Assembly (NCBI GenBank): GCA_021730285.1
Contig: CP082962.1
Span: 4,039,501 to 4,103,500 of the forward strand
Reading direction: 5' to 3'
Source: Desulfovibrio sp. JY
Lineage (GTDB): Bacteria > Desulfobacterota > Desulfovibrionia > Desulfovibrionales > Desulfovibrionaceae
DNA length: 64,000 bases
Both the position numbers and the translations under genes were made by a program. The notes below the pieces were generated by a model. The model was not told where the DNA came from. It did not search any database and saw nothing but the letters and a program-made list of their open reading frames with translations. Every line of letters begins with the position of its first letter. Positions within the stretch are counted from its first letter, which is position 1. Below are positions 45,847 through 58,296 of the stretch, in pieces.

Positions 45847-47292
45847 TCACGCCAGCATGGCGAACAGGAAAAAAAGGCCGGCGCCGAGGAACATGGCGGC
45901 CGGCAGGGTAAAGATCCAGGCCATGGCGATGGAGCGCAGGGTGCTCATCTGCAACCCGCTTTTTCCGGCGGCCATGGTGCCGGCCACGCCCGAGGACAGG
46001 ACGTGGGTGGTCGAAACCGGCAGCCCCATGCCGTCGGCCAGGCCGATGGTGGCCATGGCCACCACCTGGGCCGCCGCCCCCTGGGCGTAGGACAGCTTGG
46101 TCTTGCCGATCTTTTCGCCGATGGTGACCACGATGCGCTTCCAGCCGACCATGGTGCCGACGCCGAGGGCCATGGACACCGCGAGCAGCACCCAATCCGG
46201 GGCGTATTCCGTGGGGCGGCGCAATATCTCGCGCCACCGCTGGATTTTTTCCCGCTGCGCCGGCGGCGCATCGTCCGCCATGAGGCGCGAGGCGTCGTCA
46301 AGGCACAGGATGTCGGTCCGGACGTTCCAACGGTCGGCGGGCGGCAGGGCGGCGATGCTGCCGGCCTGGGCCAGGCTCACCTGAATGGCCTCGGCGGCCG
46401 CAACCGCCCCGCGCGGCCCGCAGGAGGCGGTCGGCGAATTCTTGGCCGGCTCCCGGTACTTGCCCGAGGTATAGGCTTTTTCGATCTCCAGGCGATGGGC
46501 GTTGAAGTAGTCGGTAAACTGGGCCGCCACCTCGCGCACGGCCAGGACGTCCCGGCTCGGCGTATCGACGTCCAGGGCGTAGACGCCAGGCAGAATGCCG
46601 ATAAGGATGAGCATGATGAGCCCCACGCCCTTCTGCCCGTCGTTGGAGCCGTGGGCCAGGCTCACCCCGAGACCCGAGAGGATAAGCGCCACGCGCATGC
46701 CGAGCGGCGGCGGCGCGTCACCCTCCGGCGGCGCGTGCAGGGTCTTGTTTTTCAGGTAATGCCGCAGCAAAAGCAGCACGGCTCCGGCCAGGACAAAGCC
46801 TATGACCGGGGAAATCAGCAGCGACAGCCCCACCTCGACGGCCTTGTGCCAGTTGACGCCGGAACCGGCCGGCAGGCCCTCGCGCACCGCGTTTGCCAGC
46901 CCGACCCCCAGGATGGCTCCGATCAGCGTGTGCGAGCTCGAAGCCGGCAGCCCCAGGTACCAGGTGCCGAAATTCCACAGAATGGCCGAGACCAGCAGGG
47001 AAAAGACCATGGCCAGGCCAAGGTTGGTGTTGACCGAGACGAGCAGGTCCACGGGAAGCAGGTGGACAATGGAATAGGCGACGGCGATGCCGCCCATGTG
47101 CACGCCGACGAAGTTGCAAACTCCCGAGAGCACGACGGCCGTGCGGGCGCGCAGGGATTTGGTGTAGATGACCGTGGCCACGGCATTGGCCGTGTCGTGA
47201 AAGCCGTTGACGAACTCGAAGGAGAGAGCGATTCCGAGAGATGCCACCAGGAGAAATATGGTGTGGCCATCGAGGCCGAAGAGGATGTGCAT
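45847..47292 (-). CDS. pit: inorganic phosphate transporter, PiT family
   Basis: 481 residues from ATG at 47290-47292 with GGAG 6 bases upstream. The repeated PiT signatures are GFHDTANAVATVIYT near the N-terminus and SLAHGSNDGQKGVG midway; SSSHTLIGAILGVGLAN and LPVSTTHVLSSGVAGTM are the paired cores. About ten transmembrane helices with a long hydrophilic loop (about 270-370). Probably symports metal-phosphate with H+ or Na+. Same strand as the Nif11-like gene upstream and near a PhoU-domain gene, so phosphate control is plausible. Confidence 0.93.
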   Translation of the reverse strand: MHILFGLDGHTIFLLVASLGIALSFEFVNGFHDTANAVATVIYTKSLRARTAVVLSGVCNFVGVHMGGIAVAYSIVHLLPVDLLVSVNTNLGLAMVFSLLVSAILWNFGTWYLGLPASSSHTLIGAILGVGLANAVREGLPAGSGVNWHKAVEVGLSLLISPVIGFVLAGAVLLLLRHYLKNKTLHAPPEGDAPPPLGMRVALILSGLGVSLAHGSNDGQKGVGLIMLILIGILPGVYALDVDTPSRDVLAVREVAAQFTDYFNAHRLEIEKAYTSGKYREPAKNSPTASCGPRGAVAAAEAIQVSLAQAGSIAALPPADRWNVRTDILCLDDASRLMADDAPPAQREKIQRWREILRRPTEYAPDWVLLAVSMALGVGTMVGWKRIVVTIGEKIGKTKLSYAQGAAAQVVAMATIGLADGMGLPVSTTHVLSSGVAGTMAAGKSGLQMSTLRSIAMAWIFTLPAAMFLGAGLFFLFAMLA

Positions 47293-47395: not shown

Positions 47396-47578
47396 TCATG
47401 TTCCTTCCACGAGATGCACGAGCGCCTGTCTGGCCTTGAGTTCCTCGGCGGTAAAGAAGAAACCGTGCTTGCCGGCATATTCGATCAGTTCGTCGAGCGG
47501 CATGCCGCTGACCATGATCAGGTCGTCCTTGTTTCCACGCAGGTATTCGATAAAGCGATCGATGGCATCCTGGCTCAT
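47396..47578 (-). CDS. Nif11-like small protein
   Basis: 60 residues from ATG at 47576-47578, with GGAGG 5 bases upstream; the frame is open to 47722 but this start is clearly best. The sequence SQDAIDRFIEYLRGNKDDLI...ELIEYAGKHGFFFTAEEL matches the Nif11/leader-peptide-like fold (helix, AxxxGFxFxxEEL). There is no Gly-Gly leader cleavage site or Cys/Ser/Thr core, and no lanthipeptide or radical-SAM maturase is nearby. A natural-product precursor is therefore unlikely. Upstream of pit on the same strand and divergent from the amphi-Trp operon. Confidence 0.75.
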   Translation of the reverse strand: MSQDAIDRFIEYLRGNKDDLIMVSGMPLDELIEYAGKHGFFFTAEELKARQALVHLVEGT

Positions 47579-47817
47579 GCGTACCTCCGGTTGACGTTGC
47601 GAAACATGGCTACGAAGGTTTAGGCGCGCGGATATGGAGGGAATGTCAACACCCCGTGGCAATTGGGTGTTTCCGGCGTCCCCGGTTTGGCAAAATCCGT
47701 CCTTTCGTGCAATCAACGTCAATTTGCGGCCCGGACTTCATCTTTTCTTCATAATCGGGTGGTATCAACCCCACTGCCGCGCGGCGCCCGCGCCGCGAAC
47801 GGACGAAAGGAGGCACT

Positions 47818-48105
47818 GTGGCGAACAAGATTTTCAAGTACGAAGGGCTTCAGGAGCCGGACGTTATCGCCGAATACCTGGAGGCTGTGCGGGACGGTTT
47901 CGCCAAAGGGGCCGTCACGCTCACCCAGGGTGAACAGATCATGGAACTTTTGCCCAAGGGATTGGTGGCGGTCACCATCGAAGGCAAGCTCAAGGGCGAG
48001 GACCGCAAGCTCAAGATGACGTTTCGCTGGAAGGAGCGGGAAGACGAATGCGACCTTCTCGACGCCCCCCTGCTGATCACGCCCCAGGACCCCAGCGATG
48101 CATGA
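47818..48105 (+). CDS. amphi-Trp domain protein (GAK-like system)
   Basis: 95 residues, GTG start with AAAGGAGG upstream (47808-47815). The pattern fits the curated amphi-Trp domain: an amphipathic helix (PDVIAEYLEAVRDGFAKG), then short strands, ending in LKMTFRWKE with the conserved Trp. The domain is known mainly from GAK clusters and its function is unknown. It overlaps the PhoU-APH gene by 8 bases, so it is expressed with it. Confidence 0.75.
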   Translation: MANKIFKYEGLQEPDVIAEYLEAVRDGFAKGAVTLTQGEQIMELLPKGLVAVTIEGKLKGEDRKLKMTFRWKEREDECDLLDAPLLITPQDPSDA

Positions 48106-49732
48106 GATCGAAACGAACTTCAAATTCCTCCTGGTCGAAGTCGAACGGCAGATCGAGGCGACACTGTCCGTCGTGGAAAACCACGACGAACGCGCCATCG
48201 CCAAGATCGAGGCCCGCGACGATTATATCGACAACCTCAAAAGCGTCATCGAAAACGCCTGCTTCGCCACCCTGCATGGCGAAAAACGACCGAGCGCGGC
48301 CGAAGTGGCCTACATCCGCTCGTTTAACATCATCGGCAACAACCTGGAGCGGGTGGGCGACCATGCCGTCAACATCGTGCGCCAGACAAGGCACTACGAC
48401 GACCCCGAATGCATCAAGCGCTACGCCTATAAACCGTTCTTCGACGAGGTAAAACACGCCTTCGACTGGATGCCGCGAGCGGTGCTCGAACGCAACATGT
48501 CGGCAGCGCTCAAGATATGCCGTTGCGAGCTACATCTGGACCGCCTGTACAAGGAGCAGTTCGACCGCATCCGCGACGAATTGTGCACCGGCTACCAGAC
48601 CGGCGACCTTTTAACCACGCTTTTTATCTTCCGCTACCTGGAACGCATGGGCGATGCGCTCTTAAACATCGGCGAGGCGGCCATCTTCGGCATCACCGGC
48701 GACAAATTCAAAATTCACCAGTTCACGGCCTTAAAGGACATCCTGGCCGAAAGCGGCCACGAACTGCCCTTGTCCGAACTGGAATTCGAATCCATCTGGG
48801 GCACCCGCTCCGGCTGCCGCATCGGGCGCATCGCCGACCCGGCCCCGGGCGAGGACCTCGCCCGCCGCGACGTCATCTTCAAGGACGGCGACACGGCCAA
48901 GCTGCGCAAGGAAGCGGCCAACATCGCCCATTGGGAGTCGCTCCTGCCCGGCCTGCCGCCCCGGGTCGAGGCCTTCCGGGAAGGCAAGAAATCGAGCTCC
49001 ATGCTGGTGGAACTGCTGCCCGGGCAGACCATCCAGGACCTGGCCGTGGCCGGCGACCTGGATCTTTTGCGTCGGGCCCTGACCGCCCAGTGCCTGACCG
49101 CCGCGACGCTTTGGCAAAAGACCCTGGCGCGCGAGCCCATCGCGGCCGGGTGCATGCCCCAGTTGCGGGCCAGGCTCGGCGAGGTGCTGACCGTGCACCC
49201 CAATTTCGACGCTCCGCCCCGGTCCATCGGCGCCCTGCCCCTGCCGCGTCTGGAAACGGCCATCGCCGCGGCCGAGACAGTGGAGGAGAAGCTGTCCGCG
49301 CCGTTTACGATCTACATCCACGGCGATTACAACAGCAACAACATCCTCTACGACCCGGCCGCCGACCGCATCCACTACATCGACCTGCACCGCTCGGCCG
49401 ACGCCGATCTGGCCCAGGACGTATCGGTCTTCATGATCTCCAATTTCCGGCTGCCGATCTTCGACGCCGAACGCCGGCGGGTGCTCAACACCGTCATTGT
49501 CGAGTTCTTCAACTTCGCCCGGGCGTTCGCCGCCAAACACGGCGACACGTCCTTCGAAATCCGGGTGGCGCTGGGGCTGGCCCGGTCGCTTATCACCTCG
49601 ACCCGCTTCGAACTGAGCGAACGCTTTTCCAGACAGATGCTTTCCCGCGGCATCTACCTGCTCTCGCGGGTGGCCGGCCACGGCGGCGACCCGGCCGGCT
49701 TCCGGCTGCCCGTGGCCGCGGTCTGCTACTAA
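48098..49732 (+). CDS. PhoU domain fused to an aminoglycoside phosphotransferase-like kinase
   Basis: 544 residues. Residues 1-215 are PhoU-like helical bundles with two repeats containing IGNNLERVGDHAVNI and RYLERMGDALLNIGE, the (E/D)RxxD metal-binding motifs of PhoU. Residues about 250-535 resemble APH/choline-kinase-like phosphotransferases: HGDYNSNN catalytic loop near residue 408, and HYIDLHRS where IDxD is usual. This suggests a phosphate- or metal-responsive small-molecule kinase. Second gene of the amphi-Trp/ATP-grasp/HprK-like operon; 32 bases separate it from the next gene. Substrate unknown. Confidence 0.85.
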   Translation: MHEIETNFKFLLVEVERQIEATLSVVENHDERAIAKIEARDDYIDNLKSVIENACFATLHGEKRPSAAEVAYIRSFNIIGNNLERVGDHAVNIVRQTRHYDDPECIKRYAYKPFFDEVKHAFDWMPRAVLERNMSAALKICRCELHLDRLYKEQFDRIRDELCTGYQTGDLLTTLFIFRYLERMGDALLNIGEAAIFGITGDKFKIHQFTALKDILAESGHELPLSELEFESIWGTRSGCRIGRIADPAPGEDLARRDVIFKDGDTAKLRKEAANIAHWESLLPGLPPRVEAFREGKKSSSMLVELLPGQTIQDLAVAGDLDLLRRALTAQCLTAATLWQKTLAREPIAAGCMPQLRARLGEVLTVHPNFDAPPRSIGALPLPRLETAIAAAETVEEKLSAPFTIYIHGDYNSNNILYDPAADRIHYIDLHRSADADLAQDVSVFMISNFRLPIFDAERRRVLNTVIVEFFNFARAFAAKHGDTSFEIRVALGLARSLITSTRFELSERFSRQMLSRGIYLLSRVAGHGGDPAGFRLPVAAVCY

Positions 49733-49764
49733 CCTGCACACAAGCCTGACCAAGGGAGGATAGA

Positions 49765-50649
49765 ATGAAGAGAATCGGCGTGGTGGGCATCCCCAAGGGA
49801 TGGTCCACCCTGCGGCTCCTGGATACCCTGGAACTGAAGACCGGGTTTCGCCTGTGCATCGACATGGCCGAGGTACGCCTCGACCTGGAAACGGGCAAGG
49901 CGTTTTGCCAGGGGACCGACCTGACCGAACTCGACGCCATCATCGTCAAGAAGATCGCGCCGAGCTATTCCCCCGACGCCCTGGACCGCATGGAAATCCT
50001 GCGCTTTCTGCACGCCGGGGGCGTACCTGTCTTCTCCAATCCGGACAGCATGTTTCGCCTGATCGACCGCCTAAGCGGCACGGCGACCCTGCGCCTTGGC
50101 GGCATCCCCATGCCGCCGACGGTCATCACCGAGGACATCGAGGAGGCGGCCGCCACCGTCACCCGCTTCGGCAAGGCCGTGTTCAAGCCGCTTTACAGCT
50201 CCAAGGCCCGGGGCATGACCGTCATCGAGGACACCCCCGAGGCCCGCGAGGAGATCGCCGACTACAAGGCGGCCGGCAACCAGGTCATGTACATCCAGAA
50301 GATGGTCTCCCATGCCGGAGGCCACCTGGACCTCGGCGTCTCCTTTCTGGGCGGCAAATACCTGGCCACCTACGCCCGGCAGGGCAGCGGCACGTCCTGG
50401 GACACCACCACCCGCACCGGTGGCCATTACGTGCCCCACTCCCCGTCCGACGCCATCATCGCCCTGGCCCACAAGGCCCAGTCGCTTTTTCCGGACATGG
50501 CCTTTACCTGCGTGGACGTGGTGGAAACCCCGGACGGGGCGGCCATTTACGAAGTCTCCGCTTTCGGCGGCTTCCGGGGGCTGCTTGACGCCTGCGGCAT
50601 CGACGCGGCCGAGGCCTATGCCGACTACGTACTGGAGAAAATCGCATGA
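49765..50649 (+). CDS. ATP-grasp enzyme of a GAK-like system
   Basis: 294 residues. N-terminal Rossmann-like IGVVGIPKGWSTLRLLD, then VFKPLYSSKARGM (ATP-grasp Lys region), VMYIQKMV, and a C-terminal VDVVETPDGAAIYEVSAFGGFRG where RimK-like enzymes carry the Mg2+-binding E...N. It fits the curated 'GAK system ATP-grasp' family; reaction unknown, presumably ligation of an amine to an acyl phosphate. AGGGAGGA is upstream of the ATG. Overlaps the next gene by 4 bases. Confidence 0.85.
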   Translation: MKRIGVVGIPKGWSTLRLLDTLELKTGFRLCIDMAEVRLDLETGKAFCQGTDLTELDAIIVKKIAPSYSPDALDRMEILRFLHAGGVPVFSNPDSMFRLIDRLSGTATLRLGGIPMPPTVITEDIEEAAATVTRFGKAVFKPLYSSKARGMTVIEDTPEAREEIADYKAAGNQVMYIQKMVSHAGGHLDLGVSFLGGKYLATYARQGSGTSWDTTTRTGGHYVPHSPSDAIIALAHKAQSLFPDMAFTCVDVVETPDGAAIYEVSAFGGFRGLLDACGIDAAEAYADYVLEKIA

Positions 50650-51734
50650 CAGCCCTGCCCACCATTGCCGGCATCATGGCCCCGATTCTCGAGGAATCAC
50701 CCATCACCCACCGACTGGAGATCACCTTCGACGCGGTGACCGTGATCGTCTCCGCCAATTCCAAGGCACTCATCGACAAGCTCGCCAACTACTACCGCGA
50801 CTTCATCGGCGGCGGCGGGTCGGTCACCATTCCGGTCACGGCCATCGAGGCCGGTCCCCCGGATTTCGACCTGCCCTTCGCCATCAAGCAGCGCGAACCC
50901 GGCAAGACCAAGCTCAAGGAGGCCTTCATCGACGTGCCGGACGGCCGTGCAGTCAAAAAGCTCCTGACCGGGCTGGTCTTTCTTTTCGGCCGTGGCGACA
51001 ACTATGCCGTGGGCCCCTGCATCGAAAACGACAACCAGGTCGTCAATTTCATCAACAACCGCTTCATCGAGCACTGCCTCAAGGCCGGGGCCCTGCTCTT
51101 TCACGCCGCCGGCGTGGCCGAAAAGAATTCCGGGCTGGTCATCTCCGGTTTTTCCGGGGCCGGCAAGTCCACCCTGGCCCTGGAAATCATGCGCCACGGC
51201 ACCACGTTCATCAGCAACGACCGGGTGATGGTCTCCAAAAACGGCGACGGGTCCCTGACCATGACCGGCGTGGCCAAGATGCCCCGGGTCAACCCGGGCA
51301 CGGTGCTCAACAACCCGAGCCTGGCACCGGTCATGGACGAGGCTGACCGCAAGCGCTTCTCCGCCCTGCCCGACGCCGAGCTGTGGGACCTGGAGCACAA
51401 GTACGACGCGTTTATCGACGAGTGCTTTGGCCCGGGCCGGTTCAAACTGGCCTGCCCCATGACCGGGCTTGTGGTCCTGCGTTGGAAGCGGGACACCTCG
51501 CCCATGACCGCTAACCGCGTCGACCTGCGCCAGCGCCGCGACCTCATGGCCGCGTTCATGAAGGATGTGGGCCTTTTTTACGAATTCGAGGACGCGTCCG
51601 AACCCTCCATCGCCAGCCAGAACGCCTACCTCGATCTTTTGGGCGACCTGCCCGTACTCGAAATCGACGGCGGCGTTGATTTCCACAAGGCGGCCGAGGC
51701 CTGCCTCGCTTTTTTAAAAGAAACACAGTCCTAG
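50646..51734 (+). CDS. HprK-related kinase (type B) of a GAK-like system
   Basis: 362 residues. P-loop GFSGAGKST near residue 168 followed by LALEIMRHGTTFISNDRVMV, the arrangement of HPr kinase/phosphorylase C-terminal domains. GVAKMPRVNPGT lies where HprK has its signature. The N-terminal 150 residues are unlike HprK. Cotranscribed with the ATP-grasp enzyme (ATGA overlap). It could phosphorylate a protein or a small molecule; no HPr gene is nearby. Confidence 0.85.
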   Translation: MTALPTIAGIMAPILEESPITHRLEITFDAVTVIVSANSKALIDKLANYYRDFIGGGGSVTIPVTAIEAGPPDFDLPFAIKQREPGKTKLKEAFIDVPDGRAVKKLLTGLVFLFGRGDNYAVGPCIENDNQVVNFINNRFIEHCLKAGALLFHAAGVAEKNSGLVISGFSGAGKSTLALEIMRHGTTFISNDRVMVSKNGDGSLTMTGVAKMPRVNPGTVLNNPSLAPVMDEADRKRFSALPDAELWDLEHKYDAFIDECFGPGRFKLACPMTGLVVLRWKRDTSPMTANRVDLRQRRDLMAAFMKDVGLFYEFEDASEPSIASQNAYLDLLGDLPVLEIDGGVDFHKAAEACLAFLKETQS

Positions 51735-51740
51735 AACGGT

Positions 51741-51776
51741 CTCGCGGGGGATGTGCCGCTACGCATCCCCCGCGAG
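51741..51776 (+). terminator. hairpin between the GAK-like genes and the P-type ATPase
   Basis: 13-bp perfect stem CTCGCGGGGGATG (51741-51753) with 51764-51776, 10-base loop, 7 bases past the HprK-like stop. No T-run follows, so termination may be partial. Confidence 0.55.
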
Positions 51777-51855
51777 GCCAGCCCGGTGCATAACGGCCTT
51801 CCGGCATCGCCTTTCCCCGCCGCCCGGCTGTCTTTCCTAACGACGCGGAGCCCCT

Positions 51856-54636
51856 ATGACCGATCCCAAATTCCCGGCCGATGCCGTCCGGGAGCCCCTT
51901 GCCGGCCCGTCCGGACAGGCCGGCCTCAGCCTTGGCCCCGAAGAAGAATTCATCAAGAACCTCGAACACTTCGTGCAAAAGGCCCACGCCTTCGGCGGGC
52001 TGGCCCACCAGAAAAAGATTACCGCCTACGACGCCTACAAGCACCTGGAAGGCTTGTGGTTGCAGGTCTCGGCCCTGGGCGCGCACCTAAACGAACCCGA
52101 GCCCGAGCCCAAGTCCGCCATGGCCGGACTCACCGCCCAGGAAGCCGCCGAACGCCTCCGCCAGTACGGCCCCAACCAGGCCGCCACGGCCAAGCGCATC
52201 ACGCTTTTCGACCGCATTTTCGACGCGGTCAAAAATCCGCTGGTGCTGCTGCTGCTCGTGCTCGGGGCCATATCCTACGCCACCGACGACGTCCGTTCGG
52301 CCGTGGTCATCATCGGCATGGCCCTCATGGGCGTGGTGCTCAAGGTCATCCAGGAGGCCAAGGCCGACACCGCCGCGGCGGAACTCAAAAAGATGGTCCA
52401 TACCACGGCCACGGTGCTGCGCGACGGCAAGCAATGTGAGATCGCCCTGGCCGGCGTGGTGCCCGGGGACATCGTGCTGTTGGCCGCCGGCGACATGGTG
52501 CCGGCCGACGTCCAGCTCTTGCGGGCCAAGGACCTGCACATCAACCAGGCCATGCTGACAGGCGAGGCCCTGCCCGTGGAGAAATCCGCCCGGCCGGCCG
52601 ACCAGCCGCCCCCGGACGGGGAAAGCGGCCTCGGCGACCCGGCCATGTGCTTCATGGGCACCAACGTCGTGTCCGGCTCGGCGGCGGCGGTGGTCACGGC
52701 CACCGGGGCCAAGACCTATTTCGGCGGCATCGCGGCCAAGCTGTCGCAAAAGCGCGTCGAAACCGATTTCGATCGCGGCATCAAGGGCTTCACCACGCTG
52801 ATGCTGCGCTTCATGCTGGTCATGGTGCCCTTCGTCTTCGTGGTAAACGGCGCGACCACCGGCAACTGGATGGGGGCGTTCATGTTCGCCCTGGCCGTGG
52901 CCGTGGGGCTGACCCCGGAAATGCTGCCCATGGTGGTGACGGTGTGCCTGTCCAAGGGGGCGCTGGCCATGTCCAAACACAAGGTCATCGTCAAACGCCT
53001 GGACGCCATCCAGAACTTCGGGGCCATCGACGTCCTGTGCACGGACAAGACCGGCACCTTGACCCAGGACAAGATCATCCTGGAGAAATATCTGGACATC
53101 AAAGGCGAGGAGGACTGCTCGGTCCTGGAATACGCCTACATCAACAGCAAGCTGCAAACCGGGCTTCGAAACGCCCTGGACCTGGCTGTCATCGATACCG
53201 GCGACGAAGCGGGCAGCACCATCGACCCGTCCCAGTACGAACTGCTCGACGAGATACCCTTCGATTTCATGCGCCGGCGCTTGAGCGTCATCGTGCGCGA
53301 CAAGCGCACCGACAAGGCGGTGCTCATCTGCAAGGGCGCGGCCGAGGAAGTCTTCGCCCACAGCCGCACCTACCTCAAAAGGGGCGTCATCAAGCCCCTG
53401 GAAGGAACCCATCTGGAAACGCGGCAGAAACTCGTCCACGACCTCAACGACGACGGTTTCCGCGTGGTGGCCCTGGCCTACAAGGAAGTGGACGGCTCGC
53501 GCCGCGACTTCGCCGTGGCCGATGAGTGCGACATGACGCTCATGGGCTACCTGGCCTTCCTCGACCCGCCCAAGGACACGGCAGCCGACGCCCTGGCCGC
53601 CATGGTCGCCCACGGCATCAAGCCCAAGATTTTAACCGGCGACAACGCCGTCATCACGGCCAAGATCTGCCGGGAAGTCCGCTTCGACGCCGGCGAACAC
53701 CTGGTCACCGGCGACCAGGTGGCGAAAATGTCCGAAGAGGAACTCCACGAGGCGGTCACGACCTGCCACGTATTCGCCAAGCTCGATCCCATGCAAAAGG
53801 AGCAGATCGTCACGGCCCTGCGCCAGACCGGCCACGTGGTCGGGTTCATGGGCGACGGCATCAACGACGCTCCGGCCCTGCGCGCGGCCGACGTCGGCAT
53901 CTCCGTGGACTCGGCCGTGGACGTGGCCAAGGAATCGGCGGACATCATCCTGCTGGAAAAAAGCCTGCACGTGCTCGAACACGGCGTGCTGGAAGGCCGC
54001 AAGATCTTCTTCAACATCACCAAGTACATCCGCATGGGGGCCAGCTCCAACTTCGGCAACATGTTCAGCGTGCTCGGGGCCAGCGCCTTCCTGCCGTTTC
54101 TGCCCATGCTGCCGATCCAGATTCTGGTCAACAACCTCATGTACGACTTCTCCCAGACCGCCATCCCCACCGACAACGTGGATGCCGACATCTTAAGCAA
54201 GCCACGGCGCTGGCGCATCGACGACATCCGGCGCTACATCCTTTTCCTCGGCCCGGTCAGCTCGCTTTTCGACTACGTCACCTTCTTCATCATGATCCAC
54301 TTCTTCGGGGCCTGGCACAACGCGGCGCTTTTCCAGACCGGCTGGTTCATCGAATCGCTTTTGTCCCAAACCATCATCGTCCACGTGATCCGCACGGACA
54401 GCATCCCGTTTCTGCAAAGCTGGTCGAGCGTGCCGCTGGGGCTTACGACCATCTGCATCTGCATCGTCGGCATCTGGCTGCCGTTTTCCCCCTTGGCCGG
54501 CACCTTCGGCTTGGTCGTGCCGCCGACAAGCTACTGGGGATTTATCGCCTGCGTCATCTTCGGCTACATGTGCCTGGCCCAGGTGGTGAAATCCTGGGTG
54601 GTGCGGCGCATCCAGTCGCGCTGCGCCACGGCCTAG
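51856..54636 (+). CDS. mgtA: magnesium-translocating P-type ATPase (MgtA/MgtB-like)
   Basis: 926 residues, P3-type. Phosphorylation motif CTDKTGTLT with Asp near residue 396, hinge GDGINDAPAL, and YDFSQTAIPTDNV in the C-terminal helices are typical of MgtA. The actuator loop reads LTGEALPVEK where LTGES is usual. A predicted helical N-terminal extension of about 85 residues (EEEFIKNLEHFVQKAHAFGG...) precedes the standard TAQEAAERLRQYGPN start and is longer than in E. coli. It follows the HprK-like gene by 121 bases, with a hairpin between. Mg2+ import is inferred by family. Confidence 0.9.
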   Translation: MTDPKFPADAVREPLAGPSGQAGLSLGPEEEFIKNLEHFVQKAHAFGGLAHQKKITAYDAYKHLEGLWLQVSALGAHLNEPEPEPKSAMAGLTAQEAAERLRQYGPNQAATAKRITLFDRIFDAVKNPLVLLLLVLGAISYATDDVRSAVVIIGMALMGVVLKVIQEAKADTAAAELKKMVHTTATVLRDGKQCEIALAGVVPGDIVLLAAGDMVPADVQLLRAKDLHINQAMLTGEALPVEKSARPADQPPPDGESGLGDPAMCFMGTNVVSGSAAAVVTATGAKTYFGGIAAKLSQKRVETDFDRGIKGFTTLMLRFMLVMVPFVFVVNGATTGNWMGAFMFALAVAVGLTPEMLPMVVTVCLSKGALAMSKHKVIVKRLDAIQNFGAIDVLCTDKTGTLTQDKIILEKYLDIKGEEDCSVLEYAYINSKLQTGLRNALDLAVIDTGDEAGSTIDPSQYELLDEIPFDFMRRRLSVIVRDKRTDKAVLICKGAAEEVFAHSRTYLKRGVIKPLEGTHLETRQKLVHDLNDDGFRVVALAYKEVDGSRRDFAVADECDMTLMGYLAFLDPPKDTAADALAAMVAHGIKPKILTGDNAVITAKICREVRFDAGEHLVTGDQVAKMSEEELHEAVTTCHVFAKLDPMQKEQIVTALRQTGHVVGFMGDGINDAPALRAADVGISVDSAVDVAKESADIILLEKSLHVLEHGVLEGRKIFFNITKYIRMGASSNFGNMFSVLGASAFLPFLPMLPIQILVNNLMYDFSQTAIPTDNVDADILSKPRRWRIDDIRRYILFLGPVSSLFDYVTFFIMIHFFGAWHNAALFQTGWFIESLLSQTIIVHVIRTDSIPFLQSWSSVPLGLTTICICIVGIWLPFSPLAGTFGLVVPPTSYWGFIACVIFGYMCLAQVVKSWVVRRIQSRCATA

Positions 54637-55859: not shown

Positions 55860-56816
55860 ATGAAAAAATTCTCACAGCTCAGCGAGCCGGAAATCCTGGC
55901 CCTGGCCATCTCCCTGGAAGAGGGGGACGAGCGCATCTATGCCGAATTCGCCAACCGCCTGCGCGACACCTATCCGGCCACGGCGGCCGTGTTCGACGGC
56001 ATGCAGGCCGAGGAATCCACGCACCGGCGACGACTGACCGACCTGTTCAAGGCGAAATTCGGCGAGCACATCCCGCTGATCCGCCGCCAGGACGTCAAGG
56101 GATTCATCCAGCGCAAGCCCATCTGGCTCGCGCCCGAACTCAAGCTCGAAGCCGTGCGCAACTTCTCCGCCGATATGGAAGGGGAAACGCTGCTTTTCTA
56201 CGAGAAGGCGGCGGCCAGAAGCCAGGATGTCGATATCCGCCGGCTCCTCGACGATCTGGCCCAGGCCGAGCGCAAGCACGAGGCAAGCGCCGAGCGGCTG
56301 ACCGAAACCAACCTGAACGCGACAGCCCGGGAAACCGAGGCCGCCACCCAGCGCCGCCTGTTCGTGCTGCAAGTCGTCCAGCCCGGTCTGGCCGGACTCA
56401 TGGACGGCAGCGTGTCCACCCTGGCCCCGGTCTTTGCCGCGGCCATGGCCACCCAGGACAGCTGGCAGGCGTTTCTGGTCGGTTTGGCCGCCTCCCTCGG
56501 CGCGGGCATCAGCATGGGATTCGCCGAGGCCCTTTCCGACGACGGCAGCATGACCGGACGGGGGCATCCCTGGCTGCGGGGCGTCGTCTGCGGCCTCATG
56601 ACCACCCTTGGCGGCATCGGCCACACCCTGCCCTTTCTCATCCCCCACTACGGCATGGCCATGACCGTCGCCTTCGCCGTGGTGGCCCTGGAACTGGCCG
56701 CCATCACCTGGATTCGGACCAAATACATGGACACGCCGGCCTTCTCCGCCGCCGTGCAAGTCGGCCTCGGCGGCGCGCTGGTCTTCGCCACCGGCATGTT
56801 GATTGGAAGTGCCTAG
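55860..56816 (+). CDS. mbfA: membrane-bound ferritin-like protein, rubrerythrin-VIT1 fusion (MbfA family)
   Basis: 318 residues. Residues 1-150 are a ferritin-like four-helix domain with ligands in [26 protein letters not shown] and AERKHEAS. Residues about 170-318 are five membrane helices of the VIT1/CCC1 type ([30 protein letters not shown]). Homologues in rhizobia export iron and protect against peroxide. GAGGAG 11 bases upstream of the ATG. Stands alone, ending at a type A repeat. Regulation not visible; the 240 bases upstream show no clear operator. Confidence 0.88.
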
Positions 56817-57040: not shown

Positions 57041-58231
57041 TTAAATTCTTATCCATTCCCGGCGTAAGGCGGTGTCCAGGATGACGCCGACGACGAAGGC
57101 CACGCCCATGTGCCACATGGCGAATCCGGCCACCACGATCATCACGTAGAATTCGGACTTTTTCGTGCCGATGTCGCGCACGGTCACGGCCAGTTCGGCT
57201 CCGGCCAGGAACAGGATCACCCCGAGCACCGCCGGCGGGAACATCTTGAAGATGACGGCCACGGACTGGCTGAAAAAAAGCGCGATGACGATGACGATGG
57301 TGCCGAGGATCACCAGCGACCCGCCGGTGCGTGCGCCGAAACGCACGTGGCCGGCCATGCCGCCCGCGCCGTGGCACATGGGCACGCCGCCAAACATCGG
57401 GGAGACGAGGTTCATGACGCCCTGGCTTATGCACATGGTGCGCTCGGTGACGGGCCGATCCGGAAACAGGTCGTTGTTCTCGGCCGTGATGGCCACCACC
57501 GCGTTGCCGAGCGTCAGCGGAATCTGGGGCAGGGTAAAAAGGAGCGTCCCGGTGACGATGTCGTCCCAGCGTATCTGGTGCAAGCCGAACTGGGGCAGCC
57601 GAAAGCCGATGCTGACTTGCCCCAGCTCACTCAGAAGCGCCGGATTGGAGACGACAGCGGCCACGACGCCGAGCACCAGCAGCGCGAACATGGCCGGGAT
57701 CTTCGGGTTGGACAGCAGCACGAAGGTCATGGTCAGGGCGATGCCGGCCAGCCACGGCGAGCCCACCATGCGGTGGATGCCCTCGACCACGAAGGTCATG
57801 CCAAGCCCGAGCATGATGCCGCGCACCACGGGCTTGGTGGCAAGGCGCGCCACGTATTTGATGGTTCCGGTGAGGCCGATGAGCAGCCAGAAAAGTCCGG
57901 TGGTCAGCCCCGAGGCGAAAAGCGCCGCCGGGGAGATGCCGCCGGCCACGGCCGCCGCGCCGATGGCCTTCATGGGCTGGATGGGAATGGGAGTTTTGTA
58001 GAACAGTCCGGCGGCTATCTTGGACACACCGAACATGAAAAGGAGCCCCAGGGGATCGACGCCGAGGATGGTGATGTAGGCCACCACGAAGGGAATGAGC
58101 GTGCCGATGTCGCCGAAAGCGCCGGCCCACTCCATGGCGTCGTAGCGGTTGGGCGTCTTGCCGCCGTGCACCAATATGCCTTCCGTTGCCGATCGCGTGC
58201 CGTCATGCGCGGAACCATCCGTCTGGAACAT
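57041..58231 (-). CDS. MOT1-family molybdate/sulfate transporter
   Basis: 396 residues from ATG at 58229-58231 with AAGGAGG 6 bases upstream. About ten to twelve helices. GAFGDIGTLIPFVVAY near the N-terminus and FGGVPMCHGAGGMAGH are the two signatures of the SulP-related MOT1 family that imports molybdate in plants and algae. In this sulfate-reducer context the anion could be molybdate, tungstate or sulfate. Controlled by a promoter with an overlapping palindrome (58297-58331), downstream of an ArsR-type gene. Confidence 0.88.
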   Translation of the reverse strand: MFQTDGSAHDGTRSATEGILVHGGKTPNRYDAMEWAGAFGDIGTLIPFVVAYITILGVDPLGLLFMFGVSKIAAGLFYKTPIPIQPMKAIGAAAVAGGISPAALFASGLTTGLFWLLIGLTGTIKYVARLATKPVVRGIMLGLGMTFVVEGIHRMVGSPWLAGIALTMTFVLLSNPKIPAMFALLVLGVVAAVVSNPALLSELGQVSIGFRLPQFGLHQIRWDDIVTGTLLFTLPQIPLTLGNAVVAITAENNDLFPDRPVTERTMCISQGVMNLVSPMFGGVPMCHGAGGMAGHVRFGARTGGSLVILGTIVIVIALFFSQSVAVIFKMFPPAVLGVILFLAGAELAVTVRDIGTKKSEFYVMIVVAGFAMWHMGVAFVVGVILDTALRREWIRI

Positions 58232-58296
58232 GGCGCCTCCTTCGCCCGGGCGCATAATTTAACGGACAGGCGCCGGGCCTTTTACGGCGTTTGATG

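Follow-up and report, generated by a model that had tools for sequence, protein, structure and literature searches.

What does a gene cluster that lies between a phosphate transporter gene and a magnesium pump gene do, and which of its neighbours belong to it? Both questions are raised by the window, that is, the whole stretch of 64,000 nucleotides of Desulfovibrio sp. JY analysed here. On its plus strand, genes of the GAK set for an amphi-Trp protein, a PhoU-APH fusion, an ATP-grasp enzyme (grasp_GAK) and HprK-related kinase B (HprK_B) are followed by a gene for an MgtA-type pump. A PiT gene and a Nif11-like ORF lie on the opposite strand.

The GAK cluster of the window and its core parts

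The features, with their profile scores, are as follows.

45847..47292 (about), minus strand: PiT-type phosphate transporter (PHO4, PF01384, 296.5 bits, cut-off 33.7; start from my own gene caller)
47396..47578, minus strand: Nif11-like ORF of 60 amino acids (PF07862, 22.9 bits, cut-off 23.8)
47579..47817, no strand: divergent promoter region, carrying TCTTCATA
47818..48105, plus strand: amphi-Trp protein (TIGR04354, 58.6 bits, cut-off 31; PF20068, 31.3 bits)
48098..49732, plus strand: PhoU-APH fusion, ORF of 544 amino acids (PF01895 and PF01636)
49765..50649, plus strand: GAK ATP-grasp enzyme (grasp_GAK, TIGR04356, 425 bits, cut-off 300)
50646..51734, plus strand: HprK-related kinase B (HprK_rel_B, TIGR04355, 549.5 bits, cut-off 200)
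51856..54636, plus strand: MgtA-type Mg2+ P-type ATPase (Mg-translocating ATPase, TIGR01524, 1095 bits, cut-off 611)

The amphi-Trp and PhoU-APH genes overlap by 8 bases, and a 32-base gap precedes the grasp gene, which overlaps the HprK gene by 4 bases; a 121-base gap separates the latter from mgtA. The PiT gene lies just to the left of position 47396, where an earlier note on this DNA had begun the cluster. That note had named these genes and their strands, and NCBIfam and Pfam profiles found all of them as described, with the Nif11-like ORF alone below its cut-off. The profile search that it had proposed, with the amphi-Trp, GAK ATP-grasp and HprK-related models, gave matches to all three above the curated cut-offs, which bears out the identity of the GAK set.

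The note was also right that the CofD-like member is missing from the window, but a genome profile search found CofD_rel_GAK elsewhere, at C1:3753465-3754568 (538 bits, cut-off 340). An XXXCH-domain protein, also outside the window, is encoded at C1:858060-858659 (110 bits, cut-off 40). Locus A of the genome has the order XXXCH-PHP-amphi-Trp-PhoU/APH, about 7 kb from pstSCA, while locus C has the order pstB-phoU-HprK_B-CofD. The window is one piece of a GAK set that is split over three loci of the genome, and its grasp_GAK gene is the sole match in the genome. All five models of the NCBIfam GAK set (TIGR04354, 04355, 04356, 04357 and 04358) score over the cut-off in this genome, three of them within the window. 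PhoU-APH and a PHP phosphoesterase have no NCBIfam GAK model, yet both are core here.

Is the PhoU-APH fusion conserved among the relatives? The best 80 of at least 524 loci were kept, so the sample consists of the nearest relatives of the window and is not a random one. Genes in the loci were called with my own script, and since an antisense call had displaced the anchor ORF in 8 loci, a recount was made by tblastn. Many of the flanks do not reach 10 kb, and the 51 loci that have 5 kb or more on each side are called well-flanked. In this recount of the best 80 loci, PhoU-APH lies within 6 kb of grasp in 49 of the 51 well-flanked loci and in 77/81 of all loci. In the same sample of best loci, HprK_B is near grasp in 49/51 and amphi-Trp in 47/51 of the well-flanked loci. 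The fusion, which the earlier note had counted as a GAK member, is a core GAK part, new here.

The second addition is a PHP-fold protein, found among 149 relatives in 80/80 genomes with grasp_GAK over the cut-off and in 2 others. It gave no Pfam or NCBIfam match, and a PDB sequence search returned nothing; matches came from fold comparison alone. The model of one member (L048, pLDDT 90) matches PHP phosphoesterases (3o0f, Z 16.5, rmsd 3.3, 243 aligned). By this model the protein is a predicted PHP-fold phosphoesterase, and it is a core GAK part, new here. Four loci (L078, L082, L093 and L109) lack the PHP gene and have calcineurin-type and histidine phosphatase genes, and L109 has Nudix domains as well. 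Neither a PHP gene nor these substitutes were found nearby in L059, L091 and L105. A phosphoglucomutase-type gene follows GAK in L078, L089 and L092; two of these three loci belong to one group, with Nitrospina-type records, and the gene of L092 falls below the PgmG cut-off (491 vs 600).

The transporter genes behave differently from these core parts. Among the best 80 of at least 524 loci, the neighbourhood survey proposed in the note showed the PhoU fusion to be conserved (49/51) and the transporters not: PiT and the Nif11-like ORF are each near GAK in 7/81 loci, all Solidesulfovibrio-type, and MgtA in 10/81, including L042, L094 and L098. The association with PiT and Nif11 is limited to Solidesulfovibrio-type loci; that with MgtA reaches slightly further, but MgtA is still not core. 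On these counts (7/81 and 10/81 in the best-80 sample), PiT and MgtA were rejected as core GAK parts, and the Mg2+ link suggested earlier is weak. The cluster could be a local Mg2+ and phosphate homeostasis unit, in which PhoU-APH controls the adjoining PiT and MgtA and GAK has no wider meaning. The flanking pit and mgtA genes of Solidesulfovibrio-type loci, and MgtA in the three other loci named, agree with this reading, but I consider it very improbable, as the best-80 sample has no PiT near GAK in 74/81 loci and no MgtA in 71/81.

A relative of the 60-residue Nif11-like ORF is present in all seven loci with the pit arrangement. The ORF itself is under the curated cut-offs (PF07862, 22.9 vs 23.8; TIGR03798, 22.3 vs 32.3), and no core peptide was found behind the domain, where the sequence ends. 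The peptide product considered in the earlier note is thus unsupported; a RiPP or other peptide was rejected on the sub-cut-off score of the ORF and its confinement to a single lineage. Anti-phage defence was likewise rejected (PADLOC models, searched with 6 GAK proteins at E 0.001, gave 0 matches).

Linkage to the Pho regulon

GAK occurs widely in bacteria and accompanies genes for phosphate uptake. In D. gigas a single strand carries, in this order, phoB-HK-pstB-phoU-XXXCH-PHP-amphi-Trp-PhoU/APH-grasp-HprK-CofD, and a Pho box of 14.3 bits precedes phoB by 66 nt. The promoter region of locus A has a pair of Pho-box-like sites spaced 22 bp apart; at locus C the intergenic stretch ahead of pstB holds no site of 10.5 bits or more. 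In the divergent promoter of the window, TCTTCATA is conserved in 7/7 aligned loci and is preceded by TTCAY in 6/7; the Pho-box match there is weak (5.2 bits). Pho-box matches also occur by chance: the highest-scoring one in the 20 kb surrounding locus A (17.8 bits) falls within an unrelated gene, and the histidine kinase gene of D. gigas contains one of 15.7 bits. Among the best 80 of at least 524 loci, pst or phoU genes occur in the flanks of 11, phoU in 7 of them, and the available flank of the other 69 has no such gene. This stricter count was used because a laxer one (15/81) may have taken in PhoU halves of the fusion.

Within the best 80 of at least 524 loci, regions upstream of GAK are enriched in Pho boxes (13/49 vs 16/365, Fisher 3e-6), at a threshold of 11 bits that was fixed after seeing a first scan. 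None of 200 column-permuted motifs did as well, and 36/49 GAK upstream regions have no strong Pho box. A threshold-free test gave a Mann-Whitney p of 5e-4, with 2/200 permuted motifs as good. The matrix is of the E. coli type and was composed for this analysis. The PhoB half-sites of D. vulgaris (PMC3333781) are also enriched (10/49 vs 17/365) at an 11-bp period, that is, with 5 bases between the 6-mers; no enrichment was found at the 4-base spacing, which is the spacer given for the 6-bp PhoB repeat in that paper. For both counts, 62 core-to-core intergenic regions were set aside and 16 loci close to others were dropped (L037-L040, L044, L055, L066, L080, L083, L088, L094, L100, L103, L104, L108 and L113).

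The evidence for a phosphate link comes not from pit but from adjacency to pst, phoU and phoB, in this genome and in other lineages, and from the Pho boxes. On the same grounds the phosphate theme of the earlier note holds, and GAK very probably belongs to Pho-linked phosphate metabolism. In D. gigas, in this genome and at several loci, GAK is located within or next to the Pst-PhoU-PhoBR regulon, in part with Pho boxes, and to that regulon it adds a kinase-ligase-phosphatase set.

Enzyme features and a possible product

In the fusion, PhoU takes up roughly residues 1-217 (PF01895, 83.2 bits over two stretches), and the APH half (PF01636, 27.0 bits, cut-off 23.2) about residues 258-461 and a C-terminal part. 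In 33 aligned sequences, both ExxxD motifs (E84/D88 and E182/D186) are invariant, as are K262, E272, H408-G409-D410, N415 and D429 of the APH half. The Lys/Glu pair, HGDxxxxN and the Asp are presumably the active-site residues of APH-type kinases. PhoU-APH keeps these positions of APH-type small-molecule kinases, but its APH domain sits behind a PhoU domain in 33/33 aligned sequences. HprK_B, whose PDB match is HPr kinase/phosphorylase, has invariant Walker A residues and an invariant SNDR (24 sequences). The GAK ATP-grasp belongs to the same sequence family as the RimK, LysX and MptN ligases, but EVS, invariant in 20 aligned sequences, replaces the EVN of RimK (5zct), which was absent from all 20. 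I take EVN to be a metal-site motif of RimK-type ligases. Judged from these alignments, the catalytic residues of GAK are intact.

What might these enzymes make? I tentatively favour a Pho-linked pathway that makes and breaks down a small phosphorylated storage compound, not a signal or cofactor. PhoB would control the GAK genes, and the PhoU half of PhoU-APH would read a metal-phosphate or Pst signal and gate its own kinase half. The APH-type kinase and HprK_B may phosphorylate hydroxyls of a small acceptor, at a first guess a sugar phosphate, to which the CofD-like protein and the RimK-like ATP-grasp would join further groups. The PHP phosphoesterase, or the calcineurin-type and histidine phosphatases of four loci with Nudix in one, would remove phosphate. 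The amphi-Trp and XXXCH proteins may be small adaptors or coat proteins, and in Solidesulfovibrio the adjoining PiT and MgtA would supply phosphate and Mg2+. A phosphorylated product is favoured by the other-family phosphatases in L078, L082, L093 and L109, by the Nudix domains in L109 and by the phosphoglucomutase-type genes.

HPr kinase and RimK act on proteins. GAK could thus modify proteins, with HprK_B and PhoU-APH phosphorylating, and the RimK-like enzyme adding residues to, amphi-Trp or XXXCH proteins serving as carriers (like LysW) or switches. The nearest solved ATP-grasps, enzymes of S6 modification and lysine biosynthesis, agree with this, as do the ISSxEP-like motifs often found in the tails of amphi-Trp proteins away from PhoU-APH. 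I regard it as improbable, because W71 is the sole invariant residue in 53 aligned amphi-Trp sequences, leaving no obvious acceptor, and partners of the PHP, Nudix and phosphoglucomutase types point to a small molecule. The amphi-Trp protein of the window belongs to the type whose gene directly precedes PhoU-APH; its predicted structure (pLDDT 87) has one helix and four strands and drew no match from Foldseek at E 0.001 or better (best VIA Z 2.7). Its sequence-profile matches to designed proteins and fatty-acid-binding proteins were taken as chance.

Membrane remodelling in phosphate shortage, in which GAK would help to make or recycle head groups of phosphorus-free lipids, was also considered. 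In phosphate-limited D. alaskensis, phospholipids are replaced by glycolipids and ornithine lipids (PMC5193443), and a PHP-glycosyltransferase fusion lies beside the pstB/CofD locus of this genome. This reading seems quite improbable, since only 5/80 loci (the best 80 of at least 524) have the fusion near GAK, and glycosyltransferase profiles matched none of the GAK parts.

It is possible, though doubtful, that the GAK product is a phosphorylated and perhaps glutamylated compound that serves as a signal or cofactor and reports phosphate status, a bacterial counterpart of an inositol-pyrophosphate signal or an F420-like compound. The ATP-grasp is nearest to MptN, RimK and LysX; CofD_rel_GAK is of the CofD family, its nearest solved relatives being of the UPF0052/YvcK type; a PhoU domain is fused to a kinase; and the set is Pho-linked. 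The several small proteins per system and the lack of a PPK match in 80 GAK genomes fit a store better, but they are not decisive. Points against the storage compound include these: the similarity of the ATP-grasp to amino-acid ligases (RimK, LysX, MptN) suggests an activity that a pure phosphate store does not call for, and starvation-type control is not an obvious pattern for making a store.

Polyphosphate kinase and phosphate granules

Among 149 relatives, none of the 80 GAK genomes matched PPK1 or PPK2; this genome has no PPK1 match at E 1e-10 and no PPK2 match at E 1e-20. GAK and polyphosphate kinase never co-occur in the genomes searched, although 58/69 of the GAK-free relatives also lack PPK1. 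Outside Desulfovibrionales the exclusion is weak (0/24 vs 40/395, p 0.07); these tests make no correction for shared descent, and some genomes belong to both the 149- and the 395-genome set.

Glucose pentakis(diphosphate) was reportedly found in D. gigas by Hensgens et al. in 1996; a literature search found nothing naming this compound. PMC5134017 describes large polyphosphate granules in D. gigas and Fe-P granules in RS-1; in each of these two genomes GAK is present and a PPK match absent. These two species, with the 80 PPK-less GAK genomes, are why a store is favoured. A point against a store is that in PMC9764997 the dense granules of a close relative, D. carbinolicus, were considered likely to be glycogen. 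With PPK1/PPK2 systems GAK shares the proposed role of a Pho-linked phosphate store only; its enzymes are of other families.

A more specific and rather unlikely proposal is that GAK makes the phosphate granules of PPK-less Desulfovibrio and other carriers, as a second store route besides PPK. A sugar would be loaded with phosphate and diphosphate, in D. gigas giving the glucose pentakis(diphosphate) mentioned above, within Mg- or Fe-rich granules coated by amphi-Trp, and PhoU-APH would be the phosphate-gated first kinase.

The GAK parts have so far been curated names, and a literature search on amphi-Trp, the HprK-related kinase and the GAK ATP-grasp found no paper; here they are tied to phosphate genes in several lineages, and two core enzymes are added. 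The granule proposal addresses an old puzzle, namely phosphate-rich granules in Desulfovibrio without a recognisable polyphosphate kinase. If true, it would bear on the Fe-P granules of a magnetotactic species, and GAK would be a second bacterial phosphate-storage route that matters for phosphorus cycling in anoxic sediments.

Conserved members of the GAK cluster

It was found by profile search that the forward strand carries, in order, genes for an amphi-Trp protein, the PhoU-APH fusion, the GAK ATP-grasp enzyme, an HprK-related kinase (HprK_B) and an MgtA-type Mg2+ ATPase, as the earlier note had called them. A PiT transporter and a 60-residue Nif11-like ORF, which scored below the curated cut-offs, lie on the reverse strand. 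Neighbouring genes overlap by 8 and 4 bases or are separated by 32 and 121 bases, a spacing consistent with a putative four-gene operon followed by mgtA. Two further transporter genes were found:

55860-56816, + strand: MbfA-type iron exporter, downstream of mgtA (NF045676, 504 bits, above cut-off); a 16.5-bit Pho-box-like match lies at the gene start on the opposite strand
57041-58255, - strand: MOT1-type molybdate transporter (PF16983)

Named genomes were scanned with an ATP-grasp alignment, and the best 80 of at least 524 loci were used. These span Desulfovibrionales, Desulfobacteraceae, Myxococcota, Planctomycetota, Nitrospinota, Zixibacteria, Atribacteria and others; the closest to the window cluster among them are from Solidesulfovibrio and Desulfovibrio. 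Clustering of neighbours gave the usual order XXXCH, a 388-residue protein, amphi-Trp, PhoU-APH, ATP-grasp, HprK_B, CofD, amphi-Trp. In a tblastn recount of the window plus these 80 (81 loci, 51 with 5 kb on either side), 77 loci have PhoU-APH no more than 6 kb from the ATP-grasp gene, including 49 of the 51 well-flanked ones, where HprK_B was counted in 49, amphi-Trp in 47, the 388-residue protein in 36, CofD in 34 and XXXCH in 23. MgtA (10), PiT (7) and Nif11 (7) are infrequent among the 81. Thus, PhoU-APH, the fusion highlighted in the earlier note, is a core GAK part, and the PiT and MgtA transporters are not. An approximately 800-residue protein recurs near GAK in L056, L063, L089 and L092, in some with LGT-like or decarboxylase-like neighbours; neither Pfam nor NCBIfam matched its L063 member.

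An alignment of 33 PhoU-APH sequences shows no variation in the two PhoU ExxxD motifs or at K262, E272, H408-G-D410, N415 and D429 (window numbering), the presumed catalytic residues of APH. Among solved structures, the N-terminal part comes closest to PhoU proteins and the C-terminal part to APH(3'), and both halves look active from sequence. RimK, LysX and MptN are the closest relatives of the ATP-grasp enzyme, whose invariant EVS replaces the EVN of RimK. HprK_B retains Walker A and the Asp of its SNDR segment, which can be aligned to HPr kinase, and the solved structures closest to CofD_rel_GAK are UPF0052 proteins. The amphi-Trp model (pLDDT 87) has four strands and one helix, with no clear match in structure comparison. 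Amphi-Trp proteins encoded elsewhere than before PhoU-APH often have an acidic tail with an ISSxEP-like motif, possibly a modification site, for example:

L068:5156-5548
L089:12034-12363
L061:5057-5416

Dispersed GAK genes and the PHP protein

The genome is one contig of 4.69 Mb, and its grasp_GAK match lies in the window only. The CofD-like member is indeed absent from the window, as had been noted, yet it is present at 3.753 Mb (locus C), immediately after a second HprK_B gene, in a single-strand pstB-phoU-HprK_B-CofD set whose PstB and PhoU exceed the cut-offs. Locus A (0.857 Mb) encodes an XXXCH protein (110 bits versus 40), a 401-residue protein, an amphi-Trp protein and another PhoU-APH, which shares 47% identity with the window copy; a pstS-C-A set (three genes above cut-off) lies about 7 kb away, with other genes intervening. 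There are five amphi-Trp genes: the window and locus A hold one each, a third lies about 10 kb from CofD, and the other two are elsewhere. Loci A and C are probably pieces of a single canonical operon that was split, with the window as an additional partial copy, the source of the ATP-grasp gene. Three PhoU_div (PF01865) matches were also found, two on opposite strands about 1.2 kb apart:

C1:134906-135499
C1:136717-137328
C1:210277-210651

The 388-residue protein (401 residues here) is, by its modelled fold, a PHP phosphoesterase. NCBIfam gave no match for its L076 and own-genome members, nor did Pfam for the L076 member or PDB sequences for the family profile. The L048 member, modelled with AlphaFold2 (pLDDT 90), matched enzymes of the PHP family, namely 3o0f (Z 16.5, rmsd 3.3, 243 aligned), RNase AM 9etk (Z 15.7) and 2yb1 (Z 15.2), and the alignment has invariant His/Asp/Glu positions. 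Among 149 relatives, all 80 genomes with grasp_GAK above cut-off have the PHP protein; two others have it as well, G135, in which a piece of grasp lies at the edge of a contig, and G067, an 87% complete genome that gave no grasp match. A place for PHP in the GAK core is well supported. The PHP gene is missing from L078, L082, L093 and L109, whose clusters have histidine-phosphatase-type and calcineurin-type phosphoesterase genes; L109, a gammaproteobacterial MAG locus with rearranged GAK order (L109:9995-19249), additionally encodes a Nudix protein and a fusion of histidine phosphatase and Nudix domains. L059, L091 and L105 have neither PHP nor these substitutes. A phosphoglucomutase/phosphomannomutase-type gene is next in L078, L089 and L092. 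Given PHP and these partners, the GAK product would be a phosphorylated, perhaps diphosphorylated, sugar-like compound.

Pho genes and Pho boxes

One genome (G028) is that of Desulfovibrio gigas: the rubredoxin it encodes shows 100% identity to the D. gigas sequence, whereas four other genomes reach 67-73% at best. Here phoB, a histidine kinase gene, pstB, phoU, XXXCH, PHP, amphi-Trp, PhoU-APH, grasp, HprK_B and CofD follow on one strand, so that the GAK set ends a run started by phoB. PstB, PhoU, grasp and XXXCH exceed the NCBIfam cut-offs; the regulator's best family is PhoB, at a score below that cut-off. Against an E. coli-type matrix, a 14.3-bit Pho box lies 66 nt upstream of phoB. Locus A has sites of 16.9 and 12.4 bits, 22 bp apart, within 147 bases upstream of its XXXCH gene, and pstS of the same genome has a 14.9-bit site upstream; no site of 10.5 bits or more precedes pstB of locus C. 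Strong sites are not confined to promoters: one of 17.8 bits near locus A and one of 15.7 bits in D. gigas fall within genes.

In several lineages, pst or phoU genes lie in the retrieved flank (11 of the best 80 of at least 524 loci). Upstream of the first GAK gene, 13 of 49 regions contain a Pho box of at least 11 bits; upstream of the other genes in these loci the count is 16 of 365 (Fisher 3e-6; Mann-Whitney 5e-4). Among 200 column-permuted motifs, none reached the Fisher value and two the Mann-Whitney value. With the published D. vulgaris PhoB half-site (PMC3333781), the counts were 10 of 49 versus 17 of 365 at an 11-bp period, while a 10-bp period gave no enrichment in these regions. The window promoter has a weak match (5.2 bits). 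It contains TCTTCATA, kept in all seven Solidesulfovibrio-type loci and preceded by TTCAY in six. A PHP-glycosyltransferase fusion, perhaps a glycolipid synthase of phosphate-limited cells, recurs beside pst/GAK loci in L056, L063, L076, L084 and L112:

C1:3757995-3760463, + strand (L148, own genome): PHP-glycosyltransferase fusion

GAK and phosphate storage

Among the 149 relatives, polyphosphate kinases PPK1 and PPK2 match in 11 and 6, and neither matches in any of the 80 GAK-bearing ones. With shared descent ignored throughout, the exclusion of GAK and PPK1 gave a Fisher value of 1.3e-4 in these relatives, p 0.002 by genus (n=59; GAK 33, PPK1 7, both 0) and p 0.07 in 395 genomes of the phylum (GAK 24, PPK1 40, both 0). 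GAK-free relatives are likewise mostly without PPK1 (58 of 69). D. gigas and G004, presumably D. magneticus RS-1, have GAK and no PPK match. Both are nevertheless reported to form granules, large polyphosphate ones in D. gigas and Fe-P ones akin to ferrous polyphosphate in RS-1 (PMC5134017). Phosphate-limited D. alaskensis G20 lacks its polyphosphate granules, according to PMC5193443. The dense granules of D. carbinolicus, of unassigned composition, are likely glycogen according to their authors (PMC9764997), which counts against a GAK-granule link. The boldest reading, that the GAK product is the granule phosphate of PPK-less Desulfovibrio, seems unlikely.

A storage metabolite in the broader sense is a possible, tentatively held identity. 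The strongest point against a pure phosphate store is the kinship of the ATP-grasp enzyme to amino-acid ligases; this kinship also keeps alive the alternative that the product is a signal or cofactor. The reading of GAK as a phosphate system linked to Pho, with PhoU-APH and PHP among its core parts, is well supported.
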